IMG/VR virus record: IMGVR_UViG_3300028653_000418
Location: 1-20,275 of that record
DNA length: 20,275 bases
Strand: one strand, 5' to 3'
From: a virus
The notes under the pieces are model-generated. The model saw only the letters and a program-made list of their open reading frames with translations. It made no database searches and was not told the DNA's origin. How positions within the stretch are numbered: position 1 is the stretch's first letter; each line of letters begins with the position of its first letter. The position numbers and the translations under genes were made by a program. Below, in pieces: positions 3,131 to 16,504 of the stretch.

Positions 3131-3197
3131 TGGCGGTCGCAAGGTGCCACGGGGGTCTCATAAGCCCCTAAGCTCGGTTCGATTCCGGGGGTCGCTT
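3131..3197 (+). tRNA. tRNA-Met(CAT)-like element without a matching acceptor stem
   Basis: An anticodon arm GGGGT-CTCATAA-GCCCC (anticodon CAT at 3159-3161), a T arm CTCGG-TTCGATT-CCGGG (3173-3189) and a TGGC/GCCA D stem (3131-3134 / 3146-3149) are all present in the right order and spacing. The 3' acceptor strand would be GGTCGCT (3190-3196), but the 5' position holds AATTCCA, which does not pair and overlaps the promoter -10. It is therefore either a decayed tRNA gene or a tRNA-like RNA. No CCA is encoded. Confidence 0.4.
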
Positions 3198-3262: not shown

Positions 3263-3334
3263 TCCTTCGTAGCTCAATGGCAGAGCGTCCGGCTGTTAAC
3301 CGGCAGGTTCCAAGTTCGAGTCTTGGCGAGGGAG
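3263..3334 (+). tRNA. tRNA-Asn(GTT)
   Basis: A full cloverleaf folds: acceptor TCCTTCG (3263-3269) with CGAGGGA (3327-3333), D stem GCTC/GAGC, anticodon loop CTGTTAA with GTT at 3295-3297, and T arm CCAAG-TTCGAGT-CTTGG (3310-3326). The discriminator is G3334 and CCA is not encoded, so the host enzyme must add it. The top pair of the anticodon stem (T3288 with C3304) is mismatched, leaving four pairs. It lies downstream of the promoter at 3095-3124. Confidence 0.93.
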
Positions 3335-3683
3335 CGAGGAGAGCGTATGGCTCCGAAACTCGGAACACCCACTGCGTGATCCTCTCCACTTCGGTGGGCA
3401 CTGACTAGCGACGAGCTTGGCGATGTGGCCCACCGGACACGTCCCGGTCGTGGTGGATCGCCTAACTTCACCGGCCGGGAATCAGGGCCCTTTCGGCGGC
3501 TTTTCCTCCCCTTTCCCCGCCGGAAGGGCCCGCCCTTAATGGGCCCCGGTGTGGGATGCGACCCCTGACAAAGCACCGCCGGGGCCCGCTACCATTTCCG
3601 GGGATAATTCCGCGATACTGGACGTAGACAAGAGGCAGCAGAAGAATCGATACTGTCGCCGCCCCTCCTGAACAGGACTTTAA
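3335..3683 (+). other. Noncoding stretch with four strong hairpins
   Basis: No convincing gene is seen here. Hairpins: CCAC-TTCG-GTGG at 3386-3397, a stable UUCG tetraloop; GGCGAT/ATCGCC (3419-3424 with 3457-3462) enclosing ACCGG/CCGGT (3432-3436 with 3444-3448); a 15-pair stem with one G-U pair at 3485-3499 with 3517-3531 (17-base pyrimidine-rich loop); and a 9-pair stem GGGCCCCGG/CCGGGGCCC at 3541-3549 with 3579-3587. None has a U-tract, so none is a classical terminator. They may stabilise or process the tRNA transcript or protect the mRNA of the gene at 3684. Confidence 0.6.
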
Positions 3684-4103: not shown

Positions 4104-4190
4104 AGTGCTTATGCGGGGGCTGGCACGGCACACATCGCCAATAAGTAATCCAACCGGATGTCTCAGCTCTCCAGCCCCTCCCTAAGCACT
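4104..4190 (+). other. Structured RNA element enclosing a possible 26-codon ORF
   Basis: AGTGCTTA (4104-4111) pairs perfectly with TAAGCACT (4183-4190), and inside it GGGGCTGG (4116-4123) pairs with CCAGCCCC (4171-4178), with four-base internal loops. An ORF from GTG 4105 to TAA 4185 (MLMRGLARHTSPISNPTGC and so on) has AGAGGAG six bases upstream; its start codon lies in the outer stem and its stop in the opposite strand, so translation and folding would compete. It may be a leader peptide or a noncoding RNA. Codon use is unlike neighbouring genes, favouring RNA. Confidence 0.4.
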
Positions 4191-4200
4191 TGTGGCGCAC

Positions 4201-4302
4201 GGCCCCATGGCGGAATTGGCATACGCGACGGTCTTAAACACCGGAACACTCCCATACCCCTTAATAGGGTGGGAGGTGAGGGTTCGAGTCCCTCTGGGGC
4301 TA
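4201..4302 (+). tRNA. tRNA-Leu(TAA) with enlarged variable arm
   Basis: Acceptor GGCCCCA (4201-4207) pairs with TGGGGCT (4295-4301; first pair G-U); TGGCGGAATTGGCATACGCG is the classic tRNA-Leu D arm. The anticodon loop CTTAAAC places TAA at 4235-4237, and the T arm is GAGGG-TTCGAGT-CCCTC (4278-4294). The discriminator A4302 is the leucine identity base. The variable region is about 33 bases (usually near 15 in tRNA-Leu) and folds as CTCCCA/TGGGAG plus CCC/GGG. It decodes UUA, the rare codon read by bldA tRNA in Streptomyces. No CCA is encoded. Confidence 0.93.
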
Positions 4303-4706: not shown

Positions 4707-5513
4707 ATGCACCCAGACGAGGCAGTGGCCGCACTCGGCCGAGAGAAGACCGGACGTGAAAGCGTGCTTGTTCCCACGGGATCGGCAGGCCTGGACGTCC
4801 TGATAGGTGGCTGGCCCATCGGATCGGTATCCGAGATCTACGGGCCCGCGTTCACCGCGAAGACGACTCTGGCCCTTGAGGGGGTCAAGAACATGCAGGA
4901 GTACGGGACAGTGGCCTACGTCCCGATGGACGGGGACTTCCACCCGGACTACGCGCGGCGCATCGGGATCGATGTCGACAGCCTGCTAGTCATCCGCCGT
5001 CCCGGGACCGGCGCGATGTGGCGTGAACTCCCCGTGGACTTCGTGGTACTGGACTCGGTGTCCTACAGCAAGCAGGTCGACCACATTAACTACCTCCTGG
5101 CCGGGAAGACCATCCTGGCCGTCTCCCAGGTCCGTACGGCTCTCTCTGACCCGTACAGGGCCACTACAGGCGGGTACCTGGCGAACGCGAGCGTCCGCGT
5201 CCAACTGGCCAAGCACGGGGACCTGATCCAGGCGAACGTCTCCCGGAACACGCTCGGCTGGCCTGGCATGGTCCGTAGCTGCTGCTTCCAGGTCGGGCCG
5301 GACGGGATCTTTCACGACGGGGAGGTTTTCGACCTTGCCCTCCAGACGGGCCTGATCGAGACGGAGAGCGGCCACTACTACCGGCTAGGTGATCACCTCG
5401 GACATGGGCGTGAGGCGGCTCTGCGTTCGGCTGTGAGCCATCCAGGGGGTATACCGGCCCTTGAGGCGCTGCTGCACGACGAGTTCAGGAAAATCTACCG
5501 CTCAGCGGTTTGA
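4707..5513 (+). CDS. RecA-like recombinase/ATPase, reduced and atypical
   Basis: GGGGGAGG just upstream supports ATG 4707. Product of 268 residues (bacterial RecA is about 350). The RecA core is recognisable: EIYGPAFTAKTTLALE at 43-58 (Walker A), FHPDYARRIGIDVDSLLV matching RecA's DPEYA..LGVDIDNLL, VDFVVLDSV with Walker B Asp116, and SQVRT...TTGGYLANAS matching the L2-side region. The Walker A glycine before Lys52 is alanine, and RecA's catalytic Glu motif (DAEHALDP) reads MDGDFHP. It presumably binds DNA and takes part in phage recombination or repair, possibly as a UvsX-like or regulatory paralogue. A promoter overlaps its stop. Confidence 0.88.
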   Translation: MHPDEAVAALGREKTGRESVLVPTGSAGLDVLIGGWPIGSVSEIYGPAFTAKTTLALEGVKNMQEYGTVAYVPMDGDFHPDYARRIGIDVDSLLVIRRPGTGAMWRELPVDFVVLDSVSYSKQVDHINYLLAGKTILAVSQVRTALSDPYRATTGGYLANASVRVQLAKHGDLIQANVSRNTLGWPGMVRSCCFQVGPDGIFHDGEVFDLALQTGLIETESGHYYRLGDHLGHGREAALRSAVSHPGGIPALEALLHDEFRKIYRSAV

Positions 5514-5537
5514 CACCTGGCGGATCACGGGTAAGGT
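5510..5537 (+). promoter_or_regulatory. Strong sigma70-like promoter, TTGACA-16-TAAGGT
   Basis: Perfect -35 TTGACA at 5510-5515 overlapping the RecA-like stop, -10 TAAGGT at 5532-5537. Initiation near 5544 would transcribe the noncoding structured region, which suggests that region is expressed as RNA. Confidence 0.65.
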
Positions 5538-5543
5538 AGGCAG

Positions 5544-6040
5544 TGAACGTTAAAACTGAATAAGGGGGACGGACCACCCGGCGCGCAGCGCAGGGGGCCT
5601 CGCACCCCCCACCAGGCGGGACGCAGCGCGGTGCGCTGGCCCACGGGGACCGGGGATCAGACTCGGCGGGGTTCAACCCCCCACCACGCCACAGGGGATC
5701 AGGAGCAGGGGCAAGTCTGCGATGACGATCAGGAAACTGCCTCCTCCGACCCCCGTCAGCACCGGTCAAGGCCCCCCAAGGGGGAGCGAATTCCGGCGGG
5801 TGCCGTATCCGTAAGCGGCTGAGGCCGGACCGGGGGTCGCGAACCCCGGCCTGGTCAACAATTCAAAGAGCTTGGCCTGGCGAGGTGCATGGTGGACAGG
5901 GCGGTCTAGAACGCCTCCACCCCCTGAACCGTGAGTTGCAACGATCGGGGCGGGTTAACGGGGGTTCGATTCCTCCGGAGGTCACCACAACGGCTGGTCG
6001 GCACTGATCACGCGAAGGTGCCGCGTAAGGATCTGTGTAA
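5544..6040 (+). ncRNA. Expressed structured noncoding region with tRNA-like 3' end
   Basis: About 500 GC-rich bases follow a good promoter and hold no convincing long gene. Visible structure: GGGGG-CCTCGCA-CCCCC near 5594-5610; a T-arm-like CGGGG-TTCAACC-CCCCA at 5667-5683; a 13-base helix with one A-C mismatch at 5823-5835 with 5844-5856; GGTGGA..GGCG/CGCC..TCCACC at 5891-5921; a T arm GGGGG-TTCGATT-CCTCC (5960-5976) followed by GGAGGTC and ACCA (5977-5987), exactly a mature tRNA 3' end. CGCCTCC at 5912-5918 could pair as the acceptor (six of seven positions, 76 bases overall), but no proper D or anticodon arm forms. This may be a decayed tRNA cluster or a tRNA-like RNA. Confidence 0.4.
5722..5814 (+). 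CDS. Possible 30-residue Pro/Arg-rich peptide
   Basis: ATG 5722 opens 30 codons ending FRRVPYP and TAA at 5812-5814, with AGGAG at 5701-5705 rather far upstream. The peptide begins MTIRKLPPPTPVSTGQG and is rich in Pro and Arg. It lies within the structured noncoding region, so it may be chance; codon use is only partly like nearby genes. Recorded because it is the only short ORF here with a plausible ribosome site. Confidence 0.2.
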   Translation: MTIRKLPPPTPVSTGQGPPRGSEFRRVPYP

Positions 6041-6069
6041 TGAAAGACCAGATCGCCAGCCTGGTAAAC
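6041..6069 (+). promoter_or_regulatory. Possible promoter, weak -35
   Basis: TAAACT at 6064-6069 sits in TGGTAAACTGGAGGGAG, which nearly repeats the -10 region at 560-575. The -35 (TGAAAG, 6041-6046, 17-base spacer) is poor. If used, the hairpin at 6074-6120 would form at the 5' end of the mRNA. Confidence 0.4.
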
Positions 6070-6073
6070 TGGA

Positions 6074-6120
6074 GGGAGAGAATCGCCGGGATCGCTCACG
6101 AGTCCTTACGATTCTCTCCC
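6074..6120 (+). promoter_or_regulatory. 12-pair perfect leader hairpin
   Basis: GGGAGAGAATCG (6074-6085) pairs perfectly with CGATTCTCTCCC (6109-6120) around a 23-base loop, followed by TTCTCTATGT. It sits between a -10-like box and the gene at 6144. It could be a 5' mRNA stabiliser or, given the pyrimidine-rich tail, a terminator of the upstream RNA; the tail is too poor in T for a confident terminator. Confidence 0.6.
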
Positions 6121-6143
6121 TTCTCTATGTCGATGGTGATTTC

Positions 6144-6398
6144 ATGGCAACGCAGGATGACGGCAAGGTCCCGGTCTATGAGGTCGGATGGCACTCCGGC
6201 TTCGGCGGGATGTCGAGCACGCACACTCTGAACCCCCTCCAGTTCCGCCACCAGCTCCACGAGAAGTTCGGGCACCTGGACTATTTTGAAATCGCGGGTG
6301 CGGGGCGGTACGATTCGAAGCACATGCCGGAGGACGTCGACAAGCTACCGTCGAACACGAATCCCCCGTCACAGAAGCCACCGGGAGCCCGGCGGTAA
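6144..6398 (+). CDS. 84-residue protein, unknown function
   Basis: ATG 6144 is chosen because the frame upstream runs through the leader hairpin and the tRNA-like region; the ribosome site is weak (GGTGAT). The product starts MATQDDGKVPVYEVGWHSG, has a central mixed region (LHEKFGHLDYFEIAG) and a Pro/Ser-rich disordered C-terminus ending PPGARR. No known domain. It is followed by a tiny membrane peptide in the same transcript. Confidence 0.7.
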   Translation: MATQDDGKVPVYEVGWHSGFGGMSSTHTLNPLQFRHQLHEKFGHLDYFEIAGAGRYDSKHMPEDVDKLPSNTNPPSQKPPGARR

Positions 6399-6530: not shown

Positions 6531-6570
6531 CGTGACCAGGAACCCAAAGCCTTGAAAGCAGGTGTACCGG

Positions 6571-7986
6571 GTGTCTTACCGAAATCTGAAGGAACTCGCA
6601 CAGCAGAATGAGCGTGTGCTTGGCCTCCTCGCCGGAGAGCTAGGAAACGTCGCCGCTGCGGAAGCGATCAACAAGCTCATGAATCGCGAGTTCAGCACCA
6701 CGGAAGCCGCCGTCCGCCGCTGGCGCGCGAAGTACCTGGAACGCTACGAGGCTGCCCTGAACGATGACACGGACCTGTCCGAGGACATCGGCGCGGGCCT
6801 GGACCTGGACGATGACGAGACCATTGTCGACCTTAGCTGGTCCGGCTTCCAAGAGGCCGACCGCGCGGGACTCCACAGCAAGCTGGACACGGCGCTAGAT
6901 GCCGTAAACGCCAGCCCTGAGGACGTCGCCGGTCTGCGGGTCTCCCAGTACCAGACGATTACCAAGGACGCCGCTAAGGTCGCGCACATTCACGACCTTT
7001 ACGCCGTGAAGCTCCTGGTCAAGACCAAGGACGTCACGCCGGAGTGGCCCCTCATTCAGCCCGCCACCCCCACCGTCGTTACGCCGGTTCCTAGCAGTGG
7101 CCGTGAGCGTGGGCACGAGAAGGTCGCGATCATTCTGCCCGACCCGCAGATCGGCTACCGGTTCTTTATCAACGACCAGACCTTTGACCCGTTCCACGAC
7201 GAGGCCGCGATGAACGTCGCGCTTCAGGTCGTTCGCGACGTCGACCCGGACCTGATTGTCCACCTGGGCGATTTCCAGGACTTCGCTGAGTTCGGCCGGT
7301 ACGAGCAGGAGCAGGCCTTCGCCGCGACAACGCAGCGCGGTATCGACAGGGGACACCAGTTCCTGGCGGAAGTTCAGGCAGTGGCTCCCAGCGCCCACCA
7401 GCTCGTTATGGAGGGGAACCACGACCGGCGTCTCCAGAACATGATCGTGAATAACGCCAAGGCGGCGTTCGGGATCAAGCGGGCCGGGAACGTCGACAAG
7501 TGGCCGGTCCTTACCGTGCCGTACCTGCTCCGTTTCGAGGATCTTGGCGTTGAGTACGTCGAAGGGTACCCGGCCGGGCAGTACTGGCTGAACGATAACC
7601 TCCGGATCATCCACGGCCTGAAGGTCCGAAGCGCCCAGAGCACCGCGTCCGCCGTGGTCCATGACGACGACGTGTCCACGATCTTCGGCCACATACACCG
7701 GGTGGAGACGCAGTACCTCACCAGGCAGAACCGCTCCGGCGGGAAGACGCTCGTGGCGCACTCCCCGGGATGTCTCTGCCGGATTGATGGCGGCGTACCG
7801 TCCGTAAAGGGCTCTACGGGACTCTCCGGCCGCCCTGTGGAGTCATACGAGAACTGGCAGCAAGGTCTCTCTATCGTCCGCTACGAGCCGGGCGCGGGGT
7901 CCTTCGCTATCGAGTCCCTGTTCATCGACACCATGAATGGTCACAAGGTCCGGTTCGGCGGGAAGGTCTACTCCCCAAGTGCCTAG
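6571..7986 (+). CDS. Calcineurin-like metallophosphoesterase with N-terminal helical domain
   Basis: GTG 6571 has AGGTG seven bases ahead; an in-frame GTG at 6562 lacks a ribosome site. From 6571 the product is 471 residues. Residues 1-55 are helical and HTH-like (AAAEAINKLMNREFSTTEAA, VRRWRAKY), suggesting DNA binding; an acidic linker follows. The catalytic domain (about 185-465) shows D191-P-Q193 in place of DxH, GDFQD at 233-237, GNHD at 282-285, His348 (IHGL) and GHIH at 373-376, the two-metal set of calcineurin-type phosphodiesterases. The substrate is not indicated: DNA ends, cyclic nucleotides or phosphoproteins are all possible. It heads the operon that ends at the terminator at 8837. 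Confidence 0.9.
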   Translation: MSYRNLKELAQQNERVLGLLAGELGNVAAAEAINKLMNREFSTTEAAVRRWRAKYLERYEAALNDDTDLSEDIGAGLDLDDDETIVDLSWSGFQEADRAGLHSKLDTALDAVNASPEDVAGLRVSQYQTITKDAAKVAHIHDLYAVKLLVKTKDVTPEWPLIQPATPTVVTPVPSSGRERGHEKVAIILPDPQIGYRFFINDQTFDPFHDEAAMNVALQVVRDVDPDLIVHLGDFQDFAEFGRYEQEQAFAATTQRGIDRGHQFLAEVQAVAPSAHQLVMEGNHDRRLQNMIVNNAKAAFGIKRAGNVDKWPVLTVPYLLRFEDLGVEYVEGYPAGQYWLNDNLRIIHGLKVRSAQSTASAVVHDDDVSTIFGHIHRVETQYLTRQNRSGGKTLVAHSPGCLCRIDGGVPSVKGSTGLSGRPVESYENWQQGLSIVRYEPGAGSFAIESLFIDTMNGHKVRFGGKVYSPSA

Positions 7987-15331: not shown

Positions 15332-15712
15332 ATGAGCGCGCTTGATAATGTTTCCAGCCAGCAGTTCGTGAACCAGGTGCACCAGTCTGGTGGCGCGTCA
15401 ATTCATGCGGCCTCTGGGAAGCTCCTGCCACCCGGCAAAAAGGGATTCATGGTCGGCGGTAACGCACCAAGCATGCAGGTTCCGTCCGAGGAGTTCGGTC
15501 CCGAGCACGTCCAGAAGTTCGCTGCCTCTCTGCCCGCAGACCACAGTACTTATGTCGGCGGCTGGGAGCATGAGGGCCAGGTCTACCTGGACGCTTCCCA
15601 GAAGGTTTCCCGGGCCAAGCAGGCGACGCGGCTAGGCAAGAACCGTAACCAGATCTCCGTCTGGGACAACAAGAACATGAAGGAGATCCCCACGGGTGGT
15701 ACCGGCGAATGA
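15332..15712 (+). CDS. Tagged protein with a domain recurrent in actinophages
   Basis: GGGAG precedes ATG 15332. The 126-residue product starts with the shared tag (MSALDNVSSQQF), then GGASIHAASGKLLPPGKKGF, and ends VYLDASQKVSRA, RLGKNRNQISVWD and EIPTGGTGE. I recall this GAS...YVGGW...VYLD.S......A..LG..RNQI.IWD....EIPTGGTG pattern from actinophage proteins of unknown function; this is recollection only. Stop overlaps the next tagged gene (ATGA), so the two are made together. Confidence 0.82.
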   Translation: MSALDNVSSQQFVNQVHQSGGASIHAASGKLLPPGKKGFMVGGNAPSMQVPSEEFGPEHVQKFAASLPADHSTYVGGWEHEGQVYLDASQKVSRAKQATRLGKNRNQISVWDNKNMKEIPTGGTGE

Positions 15713-16128
15713 GCGCGCAGGAGAACCTTTCGAAGCCGCAGTTCTTTCACTTCACCGATCACCCGTTTAATCCCGGTGAAGAGGTTATGCCTGTTGCCGA
15801 GCTAGGCACCGAGCCTAGTAACAGCAATGAGAACGTCGGGGACCCGGATAAGACGTATGTCACTACCAGCCTGCAGCGTGGGCACGAGATGAACTACGGG
15901 AACCGCGTTTACCCGGTAAAGCCTCTCGGGAAGCTCGAAGCGGACCCGGACAGTAACGGGGACGGATTCATGACCGGGGGACACCTTCAGGTTCTTCCGC
16001 ACACGGCCGAGACGCTGGCGATGTCGAACCAGCAAATTGACCGGACGAATCAAGTACACGCGGACCTGCGAGCCAGGAACGGGGCAGGAAAGGGCGCATG
16101 GTGGGACGAGGTGATTCCCGGTGAGTGA
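15709..16128 (+). CDS. Tagged Arr-like ADP-ribosyltransferase homologue
   Basis: Product of 139 residues starting with the tag MSAQENLSKPQF. After it, FFHFTDHPFNPGEEV, TYVTTSLQRGHEMNYG and RVYPVKPLGKLEADPDSN follow the order of the rifampin ADP-ribosyltransferase Arr (FYHGT..., IYFS..., YIVEPTG..E.DPN). His14, Tyr50 and Asp79 sit where the Arr NAD-binding His, Tyr and catalytic Asp lie. The GT of the HGT motif is FT, so activity is less certain than in the neighbour at 16121. Target unknown; rifampin resistance is not implied. It overlaps the next gene by eight bases. Confidence 0.75.
   Translation: MSAQENLSKPQFFHFTDHPFNPGEEVMPVAELGTEPSNSNENVGDPDKTYVTTSLQRGHEMNYGNRVYPVKPLGKLEADPDSNGDGFMTGGHLQVLPHTAETLAMSNQQIDRTNQVHADLRARNGAGKGAWWDEVIPGE
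15713..15750 (+). repeat. 38-base identical repeat encoding the tag, copy 1
   Basis: Identical over 38 bases to 16158-16195. It encodes AQENLSKPQFFH at the N-terminus of the protein at 15709. Confidence 0.95.
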
Positions 16129-16504
16129 GCGGTACAACCAGTTCCTTGCTAACCGTGGCGCGCAGGAGAACCTTTCGAAGCCGCAGTTCTTTCACGGCAG
16201 CGCGGATAACTTTGAGCCCGGTGACAAGATCGACCCTCGCCAGGCGTACGAGCGCGTCTCCCCGGAAGCTCAGCAGGGCCGGGCGTACTTCACCACCGAC
16301 AGGGCTAAGGCGAGCTTCTACGCCGACCGGGCCTCTGCGAAGCGTGGTGCCCCTCCCCGCGTCTACCAGGTAGAGCCCATGGGCGAGTACCGGCAGGACA
16401 TGATGACCAAGCGGTCGCCAGAGAACAAGGTCACCGCCGCGCCCCTGAAGGTTCTGGGCGAAGAGAATCCCGTGGACTGGAAGCAGACCCACTACGAGCG
16501 TTAG
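16121..16504 (+). CDS. Tagged Arr-like ADP-ribosyltransferase
   Basis: GTG 16121 gives a 127-residue product with 12 extra residues (MSERYNQFLANR) before the tag GAQENLSKPQFF. The rest is a compact Arr fold: FFHGSADNFEPGDKI at 23-37 (Arr: FYHGTKANLAIGDLL), AYFTTDRAKASFYADRA at 55-71, RVYQVEPMGEYRQDM at 80-94, then APLKVLGEENPVDW. His25, Tyr56 and Asp93 match the Arr catalytic set. Arr enzymes ADP-ribosylate rifamycins; relatives are used as protein modifiers. Size is close to Arr (about 140). Probably an infection effector acting on a host protein; the substrate is unknown. Confidence 0.82.
   Translation: MSERYNQFLANRGAQENLSKPQFFHGSADNFEPGDKIDPRQAYERVSPEAQQGRAYFTTDRAKASFYADRASAKRGAPPRVYQVEPMGEYRQDMMTKRSPENKVTAAPLKVLGEENPVDWKQTHYER
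16158..16195 (+). repeat. 38-base identical repeat encoding the tag, copy 2
   Basis: Second identical copy, 445 bases from the first, inside the gene at 16121 and in the same reading frame relative to the tag. Confidence 0.95.

Follow-up and report, generated by a model that had tools for sequence, protein, structure and literature searches.

Results

Gene neighborhood and relatives

The window, by which we mean the whole stretch of DNA that was analyzed, is a 20,275-base virus record with actinophage-like genes and belongs to a bacterial virus. A RecA/UvsX-like recombinase gene (positions 4707 to 5513, with its TGA stop codon at 5511 to 5513) is followed by a gene for an 84-amino-acid (aa) protein, which begins at 6144, and by a metallophosphoesterase gene (6562 to 7986). 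The preliminary description had placed a noncoding stretch downstream of the RecA-like stop, and this region is real; on its plus strand lie a conserved 72-nt leader (5543 to 5614), a tRNA-like RNA directly 3' of it, here named TLS-A (5615 to 5690), and a second tRNA-like unit of 76 nt, TLS-B (5912 to 5987). The leader and TLS-A had been overlooked in the earlier reading. The region sits within a dispersed phage tRNA island on the same strand, which comprises a normal tRNA-Asn (GTT; 3263 to 3335), called by ARAGORN and by Rfam (64 bits); a tRNA-Leu (TAA; 4201 to 4302) with an over-long variable arm, which was missed by ARAGORN and scored 50.6 bits with the Rfam tRNA model; and a short tRNA-Met-like gene (3132 to 3197), recognized by reading the sequence, with a CAT anticodon and a reduced D-arm region. 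The homologue of the last gene in the related phage L002 (1669 to 1734) scored 18.9 bits with the Rfam tRNA model, which is below the cut-off.

Two relatives, L002 and L003, were found via the metallophosphoesterase (77% and 63% protein identity, respectively), and they were the sole close matches when the RecA-like, metallophosphoesterase, and 82-aa proteins were used as probes. The RecA-like gene is 71% identical between the window and L002. No relative was found among prokaryote genomes, and phage records gave neither a DNA match nor a match to the 82-aa protein. The comparison therefore comprises three syntenic phages, and TLS-A is known from two sequences. A further candidate, L015, was rejected as an unrelated AT-rich contig with a chance 20-mer match. 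When a model built from TLS-A (R2) was run on approximately 415 kb of loci, only its two founders were clear, the other matches being weak and tRNA-like; the TLS-A model found nothing in 396 genomes of one phylum, which is no proof of absence.

Promoter and conserved leader

Sequence reading and comparison with L002 identified a putative plus-strand promoter (5510 to 5537) that consists of TTGACA (5510 to 5515), a 16-nt spacer, and TAAGGT (5532 to 5537). It had been described as a good promoter over the RecA-like stop. The overlap with the stop codon is present, and L002 repeats both hexamer positions and the spacing (TTGACA, 16 nt, TATCGT, and then GTGAACGTTAAAACTAAATAAGGGGGACGG), although the spacer itself is only 50% identical; however, because the -10 hexamer matches the sigma-70 consensus at only three of six positions, a consensus scan rejected the promoter at its threshold.

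The leader begins at about the expected transcription start and is the most conserved part of the locus: 68 of its 72 positions (94%) are identical to L002 (4032 to 4106), compared with 71% for the RecA-like gene and 64.5% for TLS-A. Since the leader, and not TLS-A, is the most conserved element, it could itself be a functional RNA. It opens with a possible leaderless six-codon open reading frame (ORF), GTG AAC GTT AAA ACT GAA TAA (5543 to 5563), 3' of which lies a G/C-rich hairpin. Compared with shuffled sequences, the leader fold was not clearly more stable (z scores of -0.94 and -1.6). The leader motif occurs once in the window, and neither a second copy there nor a further relative beyond L002 was found. 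The leader also includes CGTTAAAACTNAATNAGG, whose likeness to Escherichia coli tmRNA is presumably a coincidence.

Fold and compensatory changes of TLS-A

The best-supported element of the region is TLS-A and not the unit at 5912 to 5987 that had been highlighted. In the window, TLS-A has an imperfect acceptor stem (GGCGGGA/CCACGCC), a D arm (CAGCG-CGGTG-CGCTG), a mini-hairpin (CCC-ACG-GGG), a second hairpin (CCGGG-GATCAGA-CTCGG), and a T arm (GGGG-TTCAACC-CCCC), followed by discriminator A5691 with no encoded CCA. The minimum free energy (MFE) fold of the L002 copy (4107 to 4184) has the same tRNA-like shape (z score of -2.55), with an acceptor stem of GGCAGGG/CCTTGCC and a 5-bp D arm whose 5-nt loop contains GG; its mini-hairpin (CCC-ACA-GGG) has 3 bp, its second hairpin pairs over 6 bp around a 7-nt loop, and its T loop reads TTCAATC. 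The window copy is less perfect: its acceptor stem contains two mismatches (or a single bulged A), and its T stem is 4 bp long. Its own MFE fold departs partly from a cloverleaf, and the overall fold stability of positions 5616 to 5692 was at chance level (z score of +0.24).

An alignment of relatives, as proposed in the preliminary description, did reveal compensatory changes. Although 35% of positions differ between the two copies, the fold is kept, with 94% of the cells paired. Seven of the 26 base pairs were changed on both sides, and these changes were spread over the D arm, acceptor stem, T arm, and 3' hairpin; no such pairs were seen when the partners were slid by one to three columns. 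The slide control favors the TLS-A fold, since the structure came from one of the two sequences, but the double-sided changes are independent of this bias. Two sequences fall short of a full covariation test; nevertheless, we regard the predicted structure of TLS-A as well supported. Neither hairpin resembles a normal anticodon arm: the mini-hairpin, CCC-ACR-GGG in both copies, has a 3-bp stem and a 3-nt loop, and in both copies the 7-nt hairpin loop has an A at position 33, where U33 would be expected.

The TLS-B unit

The T arm, acceptor strand, and encoded ACCA that had been reported at 5960 to 5987 are all present, as is the 76-base unit from 5912 with most of an acceptor stem and no anticodon arm. 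The acceptor strands (CGCCTCC at 5912 to 5918 and GGAGGTC at 5977 to 5983) form six of seven pairs, with a C1-C72 mismatch, and CGCCTCC lies 48 nt 5' of the T stem, which is exactly the spacing of class I (ordinary) tRNAs. The T arm is GGGGG-TTCGATT-CCTCC (stem, 5960 to 5964 and 5972 to 5976; loop, 5965 to 5971), and ACCA is encoded at 5984 to 5987. In the MFE fold, a single long arm (CCCC..GGGG) replaces the D and anticodon arms. Within the 631 bases from 5500 to 6130, two T arms were observed, compared with 0.017 expected from dinucleotide shuffles, which makes the tRNA ancestry of TLS-B likely.

The overall fold stability of 5912 to 5987 was not above chance (z score of -0.76), like that of 5616 to 5692, so that the strong helices attributed to the region mostly reflect the high G+C content. 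No relative of TLS-B was found in viral contigs, where its 3' end was sought by exact matching, or in phage records, and without a relative, this unit may be either decaying or functional. Two other structures were rejected. A permuted or split tRNA at TLS-B lacks a fitting 5' half downstream, and a full-length tmRNA at about 5596 to 5987 lacks an Rfam tmRNA match; moreover, L002 conserves the hairpin that contains the proposed 5' strand, although it has no TLS-B.

Comparison with known RNA classes

Covariance searches with tRNA, tmRNA, and other Rfam models, a check put forward in the preliminary description, matched neither TLS-A nor TLS-B to any family, and the suggestion of an undescribed RNA holds in this sense. 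An Rfam scan of the 651 bases between the recombinase and the 84-aa gene (E value of ≤10) returned evident chance matches alone, among them the Tymo_tRNA-like family (RF00233) at 5620 to 5707 (12.5 bits; cut-off, 40), and neither ARAGORN nor the Rfam tRNA model made a call in 5480 to 6130, even at an E value of 10. Both TLS-A and TLS-B have an acceptor stem, imperfect in the window TLS-A, and a T arm with a TTCRANN loop, and the T arm was all that model R1 recovered from the region. Neither forms an above-cut-off tRNA (RF00005) cloverleaf with a 5-bp, 7-nt, U33-containing anticodon arm. The anticodon stem-loop, whose absence marks a TLD-only tmRNA, is missing according to the folds and the alignment, and the tmRNA hallmarks, G3-U70 and a GGnnUCGAC D loop, are absent from both units and present in L003. 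The L002 copy of TLS-A scored 28.1 bits with the tRNA-Sec model (RF01852; cut-off, 47), and its branch is 7/5. Judged from these comparisons, TLS-A is neither a tmRNA nor a recognized tRNA.

TLD-only tmRNAs in L003 and other viral contigs

In L003, a 125-nt tag-less tmRNA (1807 to 1931) occupies the corresponding slot downstream of the RecA-like gene and overlaps the recombinase stop. It scored 49 bits with the Rfam tmRNA model (RF00023), above the cut-off, and the short stretch alone scored 40.5 bits (E value of 5e-15). It has a 7-bp acceptor stem with G3-U70, the GGnATCGAC motif, an 8-bp P2, GGAC, and a T arm; it is too short for the tmRNA pseudoknots, and a clear tag is absent.

A scan of viral contigs for tmRNA ends 55 to 85 nt apart, followed by an acceptor-stem filter, gave 19 candidate TLD-only tmRNAs, that of L003 and 18 more, in two size classes. 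The larger class (111 to 132 nt) carries extra internal hairpins and, in addition to the L003 RNA, comprises L026 (5115 to 5246, minus strand), L037 (1727 to 1851), L053 (1146 to 1256), L060 (4568 to 4688, minus strand), L062 (5986 to 6096, minus strand), L065 (9520 to 9646), L067 (6385 to 6495, minus strand), L069 (3424 to 3546), and L073 (10684 to 10809). The smaller class (69 to 84 nt) comprises L027 (5803 to 5886, minus strand), L032 (4491 to 4572, minus strand), L050 (680 to 761), L066 (4139 to 4220), L080 (4807 to 4889), L085 (806 to 887, inside a phage array of 20 tRNAs), L089 (1661 to 1729), L090 (5325 to 5401), and L091 (4138 to 4220, minus strand). The Rfam tmRNA cut-off was passed by 17 of the 19, and ARAGORN called none of them. 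The P2 strands differ in nearly all 19, yet 117 of 133 positions pair, compared with at most 94 in 5,000 re-pairings, a control that ignores kinship among the sequences. The mini-tmRNA pattern with a stricter 3' end had at least 122 matches in prokaryote genomes, and among those listed, none had a tmRNA-spaced acceptor.

Discussion

Tentatively, we favor the explanation that TLS-A, once processed, acts as a tRNA mimic without an anticodon and occupies host factors that normally bind tRNA or tmRNA; we consider this possible rather than probable. Transcription would start at about 5543, driven by the promoter that overlaps the RecA-like stop, and host RNase P, together with 3'-processing and CCA-adding enzymes, would excise TLS-A (5615 to 5690), leaving the 72-nt leader as a by-product or a second small RNA. 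The excised RNA would retain the acceptor stem and the D-T elbow, the features that tRNA-binding factors recognize; since it has no working anticodon arm, it could not decode. It may instead occupy acceptor- or elbow-binding factors, such as EF-Tu, the SmpB/tmRNA pathway, or tRNA-processing enzymes. We infer the transcription, processing, and factor binding of TLS-A, as well as its effect on the host. What favors a tRNA-mimicking regulator or decoy, as suggested in the preliminary description, in the case of TLS-A is that a relative keeps its structure through compensatory changes.

The proposed action is modeled on that suggested for phage DS6A and its tag-less TLD-only tmRNA, which PMC4131195 and PMC11915505 describe with reference to Mao et al. 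(2009); according to these sources, a similar molecule is a strong inhibitor of tmRNA and may act by titrating SmpB. The DS6A RNA was the only published phage TLD-only tmRNA found in the literature. Like TLS-A, TLD-only tmRNAs are small phage RNAs with an acceptor stem and T arm and without an anticodon stem-loop or tag frame; TLS-A differs from them in its true 5-bp D arm and in lacking G3-U70, the UUCGAC D loop, and P2. Because TLS-A is without these tmRNA hallmarks, the precedent applies to it by position and missing anticodon alone. The tmRNA of L003 in the TLS-A slot is a hint that RNAs resembling tRNAs are made by such phages to disturb host translation or ribosome rescue. In a broader proposal, TLS-A and the TLD-only tmRNA would represent at least two independently built kinds of anticodon-less mimic, which this phage group maintains in one genomic slot and uses as dedicated inhibitors of a step in host translation or ribosome rescue; this appears doubtful to us.

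Alternatively, TLS-A and TLS-B may be decaying tRNA genes that lost their anticodon arms in an island that is turning over fast. We consider this rather unlikely for the locus as a whole, and the two units differ in this respect. An array in decay, also raised in the preliminary description, is possible for TLS-B: no relative of this unit was found, it lacks an orderly D arm, and its acceptor stem has a C1-C72 mismatch. The imperfect acceptor stem of the window TLS-A and the functional tRNAs nearby are also consistent with decay. However, decay of TLS-A is difficult to reconcile with seven double-sided compensatory pairs, an L002 copy that folds perfectly despite 35% sequence divergence, and the conserved mini-hairpin. 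Also at variance with decay is a further anticodon-less structure in L002 (1785 to 1873; z score of -4.4).

It is unlikely, to a slightly greater degree, that the functional RNA is the leader or its six-codon leaderless ORF and that TLS-A is a 3'-processing signal, at which RNase P would set the 3' end of the leader and thereby stabilize a phage small RNA. Such an arrangement would be consistent with the identity of the leader, which is far above that of its neighbors, with its beginning at the expected start site, and with the divergence of TLS-A in sequence while its shape alone is conserved. Against it, the leader fold is not clearly beyond shuffles, and the searches for a second copy or a further relative were negative.

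Least probable, and in our opinion very unlikely, is that TLS-A is an unusual decoding tRNA, with the mini-hairpin inserted after the D arm, almost no variable loop, and the 3' hairpin as a displaced anticodon arm: in both phages, a stem of 5 to 6 bp closes a 7-nt loop, which reads GATCAGA in the window and GACAGGA in L002, the L002 copy weakly matches tRNA-Sec, and allo-tRNAs demonstrate that odd cloverleaves can work (PMC7609411), but loop position 33 is A rather than U in both copies, the loop letters at the anticodon differ between them, and neither ARAGORN nor the Rfam tRNA model calls TLS-A.

Other systems resemble the proposed mimic in part. tRNA-Sec and variable-arm tRNAs share with TLS-A a 5- to 6-bp D stem, a tiny loop, and an extra hairpin before the T arm, whereas TLS-A has an acceptor/T branch of 7/5 rather than 8/5 or 9/3 and no anticodon arm. 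In some phage tRNAs, the anticodon loop likewise departs from that of the host (PMC10264068); however, these tRNAs keep the anticodon arm and have been suggested to function in decoding, whereas TLS-A and TLS-B have no such arm. The viral 3' tRNA-like structures of RF00233 are also tRNA mimics, but they are the genome ends of plant RNA viruses and not phage genes.

It has long been asked why phages carry tRNA genes. A non-decoding, tRNA-shaped phage RNA under selection for shape would suggest that, for some of these genes, mimicry rather than decoding is the mode of action. In addition, the scan extends the single published phage TLD-only tmRNA that was found to a set of about 20 candidates, with which the idea that phages block trans-translation can be tested directly.

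Several other features were observed in these phages. The tRNA-like structure at 1785 to 1873 in L002 has an 8-bp acceptor stem, a 10-bp hairpin, GGC-GAAA-GCC, and a T arm, and it sits between a tRNA-Met-like gene and a tRNA-Asn. In L003, a tRNA-Met (636 to 704) and a tRNA-Leu (720 to 793) have an apparent C for U at anticodon-loop position 33. Contig L091, which also bears a TLD-only tmRNA, carries a Pistol ribozyme (5471 to 5534, minus strand; 65.5 bits). Directly 3' of a promoter-like box, TGGTAAACT, and 5' of the 84-aa gene lies a hairpin (AGGGAGAGAATCG/CGATTCTCTCCCT) with the conserved loop CGCCGGGATCGCTCACGAGTCCTTACGA; it is present in the window (6067 to 6131) and, with 84% identity, in L002 (4491 to 4553). 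Finally, adjacent ORFs at 15709 to 16504 of the window have a common repeated start, ENLSKPQFFH, and may resemble rifampin ADP-ribosyltransferase-like proteins.
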